Source of the DNA: Acetobacterium woodii
Lineage (GTDB): Bacteria; Bacillota; Clostridia; Eubacteriales; Eubacteriaceae
DNA: 64,000 nucleotides
Direction: 5' to 3'
Assembly (NCBI GenBank): GCA_016213825.1
Contig: JACQZP010000016.1
Coordinates: 124,001 to 188,000, forward strand
Position 1 is the first letter of the stretch; each line of letters starts with the position of its first letter. The notes under the pieces were generated by a model, which saw nothing but the letters and a program-made list of their open reading frames with translations, did not search any database and was not told the DNA's origin. This document shows, piece after piece, positions 1 through 28,830 of the stretch. A program made the translations under genes and the position numbers.

Positions 1-398
1 ATCTTCAATCTGGATTTGGGTTATGCCCCACCATTTTCAACCACCAAGGATCCCGTTCACTATACTGGGATGATTTTAGACAATGCCATCAACAAGGGAC
101 GAAAACTGATAACGCCCCAGAGCTTAAAAAAAAACTGATCTCAGGGAAATCCTACCAGATCATCGACACCCGGGTCCCTGAACAGTATGCGGCCGGGCAT
201 TTACCTGATGCAATCAACCTGCCTCATGAGTTGCTCCGGGAAAAGCTTGATCAGCTAGATCCCACCCGGCCCATCGTTACTTATTGCAATAAAGGGGTGA
301 CCGGCAATGCCACCCAGAATATTTTACTCAACCATAATTTTAAAAACGTTTATAATCTTTCCGGTGGCTATCAGTTTTATGATGCCACCGGGAATTAA
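1..398 (+). CDS. FAD-dependent disulfide reductase (CoA-disulfide reductase/NADH oxidase type), C-terminal end, plus rhodanese domain in the -1 frame
   Basis: The gene is cut by the left window edge. Positions 1-138 encode the last 45 residues of a pyridine nucleotide-disulfide oxidoreductase, including DLGYAPPFSTTKDPVHYTGM, typical of the dimerisation domain of CoA-disulfide reductases, and end at TGA (136-138). In the -1 frame, from about 126 to the TAA at 396-398, a rhodanese domain follows. It has IIDTRVPEQYAAGHLPDAIN, the active-site loop YCNKGVTGN with its cysteine, and YNLSGGYQFY. Clostridial relatives carry such a rhodanese domain fused in one frame. The switch falls in nine A residues (126-134), read as A AAA AAC just before the stop. 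It may be programmed frameshifting, transcriptional slippage, a mutation or a sequencing error. Full-length proteins of this kind handle CoA disulfide or persulfide. arsR follows 16 bases later. Confidence 0.8.
   Translation, partial: LQSGFGLCPTIFNHQGSRSLYWDDFRQCHQQGTKTDNAPELKKKLISGKSYQIIDTRVPEQYAAGHLPDAINLPHELLREKLDQLDPTRPIVTYCNKGVTGNATQNILLNHNFKNVYNLSGGYQFYDATGN
127..138 (+). promoter_or_regulatory. Candidate -1 frameshift site (A AAA AAC followed by TGA)
   Basis: In the reductase frame the codons are TTA AAA AAA AAC TGA. The heptamer A AAA AAC is a classic bacterial -1 slippery sequence. A one-base backward slip here puts ribosomes exactly into the rhodanese frame (next codon CTG at 135). 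Nine consecutive A residues would also allow RNA polymerase slippage. No clear downstream pseudoknot was worked out. Confidence 0.5.
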
Positions 399-414: not shown

Positions 415-711
415 ATGAATGCTGATGATGTTTCAGTAAAAATCTTCAAAGCGTTGGGACATCCGGTTCGCTTACAAATCGTGAAATTTCTTTTAATTGA
501 GCCCCAATGTGTATGCGTACTCAATCAGTTGTTTGATTACAGTCAGGCGAATCTCTCCCAACATTTAAAAATACTCCGGGAAGCCGGCGTATTGGACAAT
601 CAAAAAATTGGAGTGGAGATGCATTATCGGGTAAAATTAAAAGGTATTGAAAAACTCCTCGCGGCCATGGATCTAACCGCCGCTGAGTATTTCAACACCC
701 TAGAATTTTAA
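415..711 (+). CDS. ArsR/SmtB-family winged-helix repressor
   Basis: 98-residue regulator starting at ATG 415, just after the stop of the rhodanese reading frame, behind a purine-rich GAAAGAGG. An earlier in-frame ATG at 307 lies inside the rhodanese frame and is unlikely. The winged helix is clear: KALGHPVRLQIVKFL, then the recognition helix SQANLSQHLKILREAGVLDN and a wing. C32 and C34 form a CVC pair at the start of the third helix, where arsenic/antimony sensors of this family carry ELCVCDL. The protein may therefore sense a thiophilic metal(loid). The neighbouring reductase/rhodanese also makes a persulfide or thiol signal possible. It probably controls its own operon, whose start lies outside the window. 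Confidence 0.85.
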   Translation: MNADDVSVKIFKALGHPVRLQIVKFLLIEPQCVCVLNQLFDYSQANLSQHLKILREAGVLDNQKIGVEMHYRVKLKGIEKLLAAMDLTAAEYFNTLEF

Positions 712-18379: not shown

Positions 18380-19675
18380 TTATTGAAAGGTATCGCTTTT
18401 TGCGTTATTTTTTTTTGAATCTGGTTTTTGATTGGTTTTAGGTAAAACAATCGAAAAAGTACTGCCTTTATTGGGCACAGAATCGATTTTTATTTTACCG
18501 TTGTGTTTTTTGACAATATAATCGGCAATATTTAAACCCAGACCGACGCCACCGGTTTCCCGGTTTCTGGCATCATCGACCCGATAAAAACGACTGAAAA
18601 CTTTGGCTTTCTCTTCTTCGGTCAAGCCGATGCCCGTATCCTTGACTTCAATCACAAGATGTCGTTTTCCCTGGACCAGACACAATTGAACCTTTCCGCC
18701 GACTGGTGTGTATTTAATGGCATTATCAACCAAAATTCGCACTGCCTGTTTAAGCCGTTCTTCATCGCCCCGATACTGAATACCCTGGGAAATATTTTCA
18801 CTAAGCTCAATTTCTTTTTCATTGGCCAATTCAGTCATAAGATCAACCATTTGCTGACACATGGAAGATAAATCAAAAACGTCCTTGTCCATAGCAAGCT
18901 GTTGATTTTCTGCTTGGGCAATCAGCAATAACTCTGAGATGAGTTTTGCCATGGTTTCTCCTTCACTGGCAATGTTGTTCAACCACTTCATATTATCCTT
19001 GATCTGCTCATCTTCTTTGAGTTTCAATACTTCTACATTGGTTTGAATGACGGTCAACGGGGTTCTCAATTCGTGAGAAGCATTGGCAATAAACTTCTTC
19101 TGATCTTCGAAGGTCTCCTTAATCGGCTGCAGTGATTTTCCCGCCAGAAAATAACTGATGGGAATCAGTACTGCAATAGAACCCATACCAATTAAAAACA
19201 GGAACGAAATCACATAGGCAATAATTGATCTTTCGGTAGACACCTGCTGAAAAACCTGAAGTGTATAATCGTTAGAATTATTTGAATAAGGAAGTGTATA
19301 TACCCGGTATTCGACATTTTCTGAGGTCAGTAAACTAAACTTAGGGGTTGTATTTTCTTTAATGGCGAGTTCATAACCCAACATAATCAGGTTGCGATCA
19401 TCCACTTTCATGTTTTTTACCGTGTGACCGCTATCCCACATGATAAATTGATAGCCAAATTTGTCGTGAACCGAATCAACCGAGTTAATTGGTTGGGACG
19501 TCGTTTGGCCGTTGTTTTGAATGATTTCTTTGGCCACATTGGTCAGGTACATTTCACCAGAAAGACTGAGACTCCAATTGACTAAAAAACCCAGCAGAAA
19601 TATAAACATGAACATGAAAATAATCAGAATCAGCGTATTAAATAGTGTAATCTTTCGCTTGATTTCTTTAAACAT
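18380..19675 (-). CDS. Membrane sensor histidine kinase
   Basis: 431 residues. A membrane segment lies at about residues 11-34, followed by an extracellular part of about 120 residues and a second segment at about 152-176 (IIAYVISFLFLIGMGSIAVL). The HisKA motif FIANASHELRTPLTVIQ carries His201, and the ATP-binding region has AVRILVDNAIKYTPVGG, VKDTGIGLTEEEK and GVGLGLNIADYIVKKHNG. It would phosphorylate the OmpR-type regulator encoded 18 bases upstream. The stimulus is unknown. The C-terminal tail is short and basic. Confidence 0.93.
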   Translation of the reverse strand: MFKEIKRKITLFNTLILIIFMFMFIFLLGFLVNWSLSLSGEMYLTNVAKEIIQNNGQTTSQPINSVDSVHDKFGYQFIMWDSGHTVKNMKVDDRNLIMLGYELAIKENTTPKFSLLTSENVEYRVYTLPYSNNSNDYTLQVFQQVSTERSIIAYVISFLFLIGMGSIAVLIPISYFLAGKSLQPIKETFEDQKKFIANASHELRTPLTVIQTNVEVLKLKEDEQIKDNMKWLNNIASEGETMAKLISELLLIAQAENQQLAMDKDVFDLSSMCQQMVDLMTELANEKEIELSENISQGIQYRGDEERLKQAVRILVDNAIKYTPVGGKVQLCLVQGKRHLVIEVKDTGIGLTEEEKAKVFSRFYRVDDARNRETGGVGLGLNIADYIVKKHNGKIKIDSVPNKGSTFSIVLPKTNQKPDSKKNNAKSDTFQ

Positions 19676-27612: not shown

Positions 27613-28830
27613 TTGAAAAAAAAAGTAATTCTTGCCTATTCCGGTGGATTAGATACCACAACGATTATACCATGGCTTAAAAACACTTACGACTATGATG
27701 TTATCGCGGTGTGTGTGGATGTGGGACAGGGAACTGAGCTGGAGGGTCTTGAAGAGCGAGCCCTTGCTTCCGGAGCCAGCAAGTTATATATAGAAGATGT
27801 TACCGATGAGTTTGTGGAAGACTTTGTCTGGCCAGCCCTTAAAGCCGACGCTATTTATGAGAAAAAATATTTGTTAGGTACTTCCCTGGCTCGTCCCTTG
27901 ATTGCCAAGGTTCTGGTAAAATATGCAGAACTGGAAGGTGCTGAAGCCATCTGTCACGGCGCTACCGGTAAAGGCAACGATCAGGTTCGTTTTGAGCTGA
28001 CCATTGGCGCTTTGGCACCACAATTAAAAATCATTGCCCCCTGGCGAATTTGGGATATTAAATCCCGTGAAGACGCCATGGACTATTGCGTTATGCATGA
28101 TATCAAGGTACCGATGTCCATCAGCAACAGCTACAGCCGCGATAAAAATATCTTACATATGAGTCATGAAGGTCTTGAGTTGGAAGATCCATCTTTAGAA
28201 CCACAATATAAAAAATTACTGCAAATGACAACCCCTCTAGAAGAAGCACCAGACGAAGCTGAAATTGTCAGTCTTGACTTTGAAGAAGGAATTCCCGTCC
28301 GCTTAAACGGCGTTGAACTGACTGGCCGAGAACTGCTTGAACAACTTAACATTATCGGCGGACGACACAGCATTGGCGTGGTGGATTTAATAGAAAACCG
28401 TGTGGTTGGCATGAAATCCCGAGGGATTTATGAAACTCCCGGCGGCTCAATTCTTTACAATGCCCATGAAGAATTGGAACACATGTGTCTGGATCGTCAA
28501 ACTTTCGGCTTTAAACAACAGGCTGCCGTTAAGTTTGCTGAATTAGCCTATAATGGTGAATGGTACACACCCCTTCGTGAAGCTTTGACTGCTTTTGTCG
28601 ATGAAACCCAAAAAACGGTAACCGGGAATGTTCGCTTAAAGCTTTATAAAGGCAATATTATCCTGATCGGCGTGACCTCACCTTATTCACTTTACAATGC
28701 CGAAATTGCCAGCTTCACCACCGGCGATTTATACGATCATAAAGATGCTGAAGGTTTTATTCATTTATTTGGCTTACCGCTTAAAGTTCGTGCTTTAATG
28801 CGACTCAGCCGAGAAGAAAAAGGGGAATAA
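27613..28830 (+). CDS. argG: Argininosuccinate synthase
   Basis: 405 residues starting with TTG at 27613, nine bases after a perfect AGGAGG (27599-27604). The ATP PP-loop is [17 protein letters not shown], followed by [38 protein letters not shown] and [14 protein letters not shown]-type sequence. It joins citrulline and aspartate with ATP. argH follows six bases after the stop. The ornithine carbamoyltransferase gene (argF) that makes citrulline is not in the window. Confidence 0.96.

Follow-up and report, generated by a model that had tools for sequence, protein, structure and literature searches.

Anatomy of the reductase-rhodanese joint

The DNA analysed here (the window, 64,000 nucleotides from Acetobacterium woodii) begins with the end of a reductase gene whose frame closes at a run of adenines, while a rhodanese domain follows in a different frame. 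The question raised by this locus is whether the gene is simply interrupted or gives two proteins, the reductase alone and a reductase-rhodanese fusion. The original prediction placed the reductase stop right after a slippery heptamer in a run of nine adenines, with the rhodanese reached by a one-base (-1) slip, and both statements are borne out (Table 1). Window positions 121-138 read AGC TTA AAA AAA AAC TGA, and the -1 frame is open to its own stop codon and has the Pfam domain Rhodanese over positions 120-395 (E-value: 1.9e-20). The reductase ORF encodes 458 aa (L002:4762-6138, with the C-terminal end QSLKKN before the stop) and has the Pfam domains Pyr_redox_2 (E-value: 1.6e-59) and Pyr_redox_dim; it starts 1,239 bases ahead of window position 1, and most of the gene is outside the window. 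Counting from the beginning of the run, no start codon appears in the rhodanese frame until a TTG at 105 bases. The ArsR/SmtB gene that follows is probably carried on one transcript with the reductase and rhodanese.

Table 1. Features at the reductase-rhodanese joint of the window
Feature	Position	Strand	Basis
3' end of flavoprotein disulfide/persulfide reductase gene	1-138	+	ORF and profile matches; stop TGA 136-138
A9 run, proposed transcriptional slippage site	126-134	+	A>=9 in 13/13 rhodanese-bearing genus orthologs
A_AAA_AAC heptamer in reductase phase, possible ribosomal -1 site	129-135	+	Read from sequence
Rhodanese domain frame, -1 relative to reductase	120-398	+	Stop TAA 396-398; Cys in TYCNKG
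ArsR/SmtB-family regulator (98 aa), next gene downstream	415-711	+	ORF and profile match

The joint across the genus

The genus was sampled with 19 genomes, one per species. A reductase with a downstream rhodanese is found in 13 of these and the reductase alone in two, while the remaining four have neither (no ortholog of at least 67% identity in G003, G005, G009 and G015; G009 is 81% complete). The comparison of run length among relatives, proposed with the original prediction, gives A9 to A11 at the joint of all 13 rhodanese-bearing genomes: A9 in 10, A10 in two and A11 in one. Including the window, eight of these loci are out of frame and five (L006, L008, L009, L014 and L015) are in frame, so the pattern that had been named as grounds for rejection, relatives always in one frame and lacking the run, does not hold within the genus. 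Seven of the out-of-frame loci require a -1 shift (L003, which is the window, and L005, L007, L010, L011, L012 and L013), each with exactly nine adenines. The heptamer is followed by TGA in the window, L007, L011, L012 and L013, by TAA in L005 and by GAC TAA in L010. The eighth, L004, has A11 and requires a shift in the opposite direction, although it is 95% identical to the window's region. Not counted were L063-L068, L083 and L085, the joints of which are identical to those of species already included (the A. dehalogenans joint, L065, equals that of L007; A. wieringae, L067, that of L012; A. bakii, L083, that of L015), and L001, L002, L021 and L031, which are either unlike fragments or additional parts of loci already included.

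Because seven species' assemblies share the -1 layout with exactly nine adenines, the concern that the joint might reflect a sequencing error or a one-off mutation is largely answered. Homopolymers are error-prone and the A11 run comes from one single-contig genome, but, with identical A9 joints at -1 in seven assemblies, a sequencing or assembly error can be set aside with near certainty as a general cause. The opposite shift direction comes from a single assembly, that of L004, in which A11 could be an assembly error.

Three of the in-frame species still have A9, preceded by CTT or TTG, and so their frame differs because of the bases before the run and not because of its length. As the frame flips at constant A9 (three species in frame, seven out of frame), it is the run that is kept and not the frame. 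A reductase DNA tree of 15 rows, from which the joint was excluded, requires a minimum of four changes of frame state, three of them forced by supported branches; frame state shows no clustering on this tree beyond that of shuffled labels (278 of 500 shuffles were as low). A pattern of this kind might be produced by phase variation, in which replication slippage changes the run in the DNA and switches the rhodanese on or off within populations. Closely related species do differ in frame state, and the runs of L003 and L004 are two adenines apart in length. However, the run is exactly nine in 10 of the 13 loci, the frame changes where run length does not, the gene looks like that of a cytoplasmic metabolic enzyme and nine adenines make a short run by the standards of contingency loci. 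Phase variation is thus an improbable explanation of the joint.

In the two genomes with the reductase alone (L016 in G012 and L017 in G013), the protein ends in LNH or LNN, and neither a rhodanese nor an ArsR gene is found downstream; the bases after the reductase resemble the end of a neighbouring galE-like gene. Species of this genus can thus live with a free reductase. L012 and L013, which are A. wieringae-like, retain the rhodanese and have no ArsR gene directly downstream. G002 contains another copy of CTTAAAAAAAAACTGA (C1:3530744-3530759, minus strand), with the same letters as the joint of the in-frame ortholog, approximately 3 kb from a distant reductase homolog.

Orthologs and distant homologs outside the genus

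A scan outside the genus was made with the best 80 of 88 relatives. At least 16 orthologs with a rhodanese match were found (reductase identity 49-65%), all of which are in frame. No run of A7 or longer is present in the 90 bases around the joint of the 16 listed orthologs, the longest being A6. Because these orthologs are in frame and lack the run, the A-run at the joint appears, as far as seen, to be a feature of this genus.

Confusion with paralogs was also considered and rejected. Among 14 distant homologs (L048-L061, 34-39% identity), the 11 with a rhodanese match are all in frame and the remaining three are open past the joint; none of the 14 has A7 or longer at this position.

Selection on the rhodanese domain

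If the frame changes were plain frameshift mutations, the rhodanese of the out-of-frame species would be the decaying tail of a pseudogene. A-runs are hot spots for indels, and there are lineages in which the domain is damaged or missing: it is truncated in L011 and lost in L016 and L017. The coding sequence of the domain argues otherwise. The matched rhodanese segment contains no internal stops and keeps the TYCNKG cysteine at all 13 loci. All genus pairs for which rhodanese dN/dS could be calculated stay below 0.25, including pairs in which both members are out of frame, and neutrality is rejected in five such pairs. L012 and L013 (both A9) differ at 16.0 of 58.8 synonymous and 14.0 of 211.2 nonsynonymous sites (p = 1.5e-4); the other four are L007/L011 (p = 1.8e-6), L007/L012 (p = 3.5e-6), L003/L010 (p = 2.5e-11) and L003/L004 (p = 4.7e-6). 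As L003 (A9) and L004 (A11) may each have arisen from an in-frame A10 ancestor, selection in that last pair is no proof of out-of-frame expression.

Relative to the reductase, rhodanese dN/dS is 1.2- to 1.6-fold in the close out-of-frame pairs L003/L004, L012/L013 and L007/L011 and 1.5- to 1.9-fold among the in-frame loci L006, L008 and L009. In other out-of-frame pairs this ratio is uneven, from 0.7 (L004/L010) to 3.9 (L010/L012), with saturated pairs excluded. Given this selection, and a run kept at all 13 loci where control runs vanish (see below), a pseudogene tail is very improbable.

L011 (G006), itself out of frame, encodes a rhodanese without its last ~20 residues: a deletion brings a TAA right after ILLNHN, while the TYCNKG loop is intact. 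Given this truncation and the loss of the domain in L016 and L017, the rhodanese is dispensable in some lineages.

An independent start for the rhodanese was considered and rejected in seven of the eight out-of-frame species, which have no in-frame start codon between the run and the domain. In these seven, the first start codon is found at least 77 bases after the run begins or is absent from the ~150 bases scanned. The exception is L010, where a TTG lies 27 bases from the beginning of the run and no clear ribosome site is seen by eye. Because the domain is under selection and has no start codon of its own ahead of it in seven of eight species, the out-of-frame rhodanese is most likely produced joined to the reductase, by way of a frame change.

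Avoidance of long A-runs and control genes

The background was taken from 864 kb of four genus genomes (ORFs of at least 150 aa), with expectations from synonymous shuffles. Runs of A9 or longer are depleted approximately 4.5-fold in the sampled genes (11 observed, 49.5 expected). Runs of A6 are more frequent than expected in each of the four samples and those of A7 in three of them; A8 is rarer than expected in three samples and commoner in G018 (21 versus 17.0). Runs of T9 or longer are perhaps also avoided (1 observed, 12.1 expected). The tripeptide KKK is spelled AAAAAAAAA in only 3 of 75 sampled cases, where 30 are expected; at the joint it is spelled this way in all five in-frame species. 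In the text of Baranov 2005 (PMC1088944), such run avoidance is taken as a sign of polymerase slippage at that length. The pattern seen here, with A6 over-represented and A9 or longer avoided, has the appearance of a threshold length at which the polymerase begins to slip.

Where A9 runs do occur in other genes, they are rarely kept. Five control genes were chosen from the eleven A9 runs listed; of the other six, four are near gene starts, and two (L145 and L176) are internal. The controls keep A9 in 1/14, 1/16, 1/15, 0/12 and 1/15 orthologs besides the query (4/72 in all). Alignments missing the run were excluded (1/16, 0/17, 0/16, 1/14 and 4/20 loci), and one control set includes a second copy from one genome. 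At the joint, A9 or longer is kept in 12/12 orthologs besides the query versus these 4/72, counts that are uncorrected for relatedness.

Two other A9 runs were noted in the window. The first (positions 18408-18416) is located towards the 3' end of an ORF of 431 aa that is sensor-kinase-like by appearance (minus strand gene, 18380-19675). It is not conserved, being A8 in both ~94% sisters, and A9 or longer is present in only one of 15 other aligned orthologs. The second is in an ORF named argininosuccinate-synthase-like from its sequence, which starts TTG AAA AAA AAA (27613-27624) after AGGAGG and so has A9 directly behind a non-ATG start in an A9-avoiding genus.

Mechanism of the frame change

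The original prediction proposed slippage at the run with two products, the reductase alone and the fusion, and attributed it to programmed -1 ribosomal frameshifting on A_AAA_AAC. A functional frame shift at the A-run and the pair of products are supported by the conservation of the run and by selection on the rhodanese; the specifically ribosomal part of the proposal is not supported in the form given. Under it, the fusion would be translated from a uniform nine-A mRNA. An exact, in-phase heptamer is indeed present at the -1 joint of seven species, and the text of PMC4066793 mentions a proven IS cluster that uses A_AAA_AAC without an established stimulator. However, the heptamer is an automatic consequence of A9C in the reductase phase, and the same text suggests that re-pairing from AAC to AAA is less readily tolerated by the bacterial than by the eukaryotic ribosome. 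A Shine-Dalgarno-like GAGGA is seen by eye upstream in L007, L008 and L009 only. No downstream stimulatory structure was found in the 70 bases of each of 13 species (z from -0.97 to +1.56 against shuffles, in a search for pseudoknot-free folds). The shift also lacks the single direction among orthologs by which ribosomal frameshifting is recognized, as L004 (A11) requires the other direction and five in-frame species keep the run. Given the direction in L004, the run in the in-frame species and folds no better than those of shuffles, ribosomal -1 frameshifting is not supported as stated and is unlikely to account for the joint, while a ribosomal contribution alongside polymerase slippage is possible.

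Three features by which slippage genes are recognized are present at this locus: a run of about 8-9 or more A or T at the frame transition (A9-A11 at 13/13 loci), conservation of this run beyond the background together with its avoidance elsewhere (four genome samples and five control genes), and a shift direction that is not conserved (-1 in seven loci, opposite in L004 and none in five). In the main text of Antonov 2013 (PMC3711429), an unconserved direction among orthologs is a criterion for transcriptional realignment; the same text describes a nine-A cassette from another gene that gave 40% frameshifting in E. coli. Transcriptional slippage is preferred here because one mechanism explains all of the frame states. 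The joint is therefore regarded as probably a conserved RNA polymerase slippage site, through which the gene would give both the reductase alone and the fusion. We infer slippage itself, its level and its mainly transcriptional nature from these comparisons of sequence.

The proposed model is as follows. The gene would encode an enzyme of the Npsr/CoADR-RHD type (an FAD reductase with a C-terminal rhodanese), and the connection between its two domains would have turned into a conserved polymerase slippage site. At nine adenines, the polymerase would produce a mixture of mRNAs with 8, 9, 10 or more. In the window's species, a message with nine adenines would yield the reductase alone, with KKN as its last residues, and one with ten adenines the fusion; in the in-frame species, the unslipped message would give the fusion and slipped messages the reductase alone. 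When messages with 7-12 adenines are translated, one register in three leads to the fusion. In all five in-frame species, one adenine fewer stops translation at once (after LKKN) and one more stops it within 8 codons after the run. As both products would be made in either frame state, single-base indels at the joint would be tolerated, and the frame could drift between species while the A-run is kept.

A stronger form of this reading, for which the chances appear about even, is that the gene is indifferent to its frame: selection throughout this free-living genus would keep the nine-A run, two enzymes would always be made and the frame in the DNA would only set their ratio, species by species. 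One enzyme would then resemble a disulfide reductase and the other would be the persulfide-reductase fusion, and the two might occur as mixed dimers. Alternatively, selection for another function could account for the retention of the run, with the fusion as the only product.

Enzyme type and possible function

The encoded protein has the layout of Npsr/CoADR-RHD enzymes, with an FAD/NAD reductase, a dimerisation domain and a C-terminal rhodanese with its Cys. Cys42 is invariant in six aligned rows and the rhodanese Cys is present in 13/13. The CoADR-RHD structure 3icr aligns with residues 2-542 of an in-frame ortholog (P0001, 546 aa; phmmer E-value: 8.2e-112), and the same two-domain layout as that of the genus fusion is described for the Npsr/CoADR-RHD entries consulted (3icr, 8a56, 6pfz and 3nta). 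The cut-offs of the CoA-disulfide reductase equivalogs TIGR03385 and NF007123 are not reached (446.9 of 578.8 and 380.2 of 458 bits, respectively), and the reductase, judged by these profiles, is related to CoA-disulfide reductase and not filed as an equivalog.

As described in the text of PMC7969121, CoADR is without a rhodanese domain; in Npsr the domain is present, and its cysteine is the first acceptor of the sulfur. By analogy, the two proposed forms resemble a free CoA-disulfide reductase and a persulfide reductase (Npsr). They could thus cover both disulfide and persulfide substrates or form mixed dimers.

Comparison with known slippage genes

The nearest precedent, by analogy, is the pair tssM1 of Citrobacter rodentium and tssM3 of Yersinia pseudotuberculosis. 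According to the text of PMC4256274, these genes have a poly-A run before a premature stop and truncated and full-length forms, as proposed here; the unslipped product of tssM1 is the short form, while in tssM3 slippage leads to the short form. TssM is a type VI secretion protein with A11 in tssM1 and slippage of ~20-25% shown by mass spectrometry and westerns, whereas the genus locus encodes a metabolic enzyme, has mostly A9, is known from sequence comparison and extends over a whole genus with repeated frame flips.

The layout of the five in-frame species is that described for Thermus thermophilus dnaX (PMC5009743), with a run of nine, a long product encoded by one ORF, nearby stops in both other frames and two products. 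In dnaX these are DNA polymerase subunits at a ratio of about 1:1; at the genus locus, the DNA frame itself varies between species. The GeneTack clusters in the main text of PMC3711429 (magnesium chelatase, DUF111 and others) likewise have frame transitions and fused relatives. Those of magnesium chelatase, a different gene and the source of the nine-A cassette with 40% frameshifting, occur at A-runs as at the genus joint.

The main text of PMC3711429 contains none of the terms disulfide, sulfurtransferase and Acetobacterium, and in open-licence PMC main texts transcriptional slippage was not linked to Acetobacterium, nor this reductase to rhodanese and frameshift together. Genes that use polymerase slippage are already known (tssM and dnaX); the acetogen reductase-rhodanese locus would be a new one among them.

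If the proposed slippage is confirmed, a conserved, non-mobile metabolic gene of acetogens would join the bacterial genes that use polymerase slippage, and its in-frame and out-of-frame orthologs would form a natural series for measuring the effect of slippage on selection. It would also suggest that automatic annotation can mislabel genes with A9 runs in this genus as 'frameshifted pseudogenes', and one gene would link free CoA-disulfide-type reductases with Npsr fusions.
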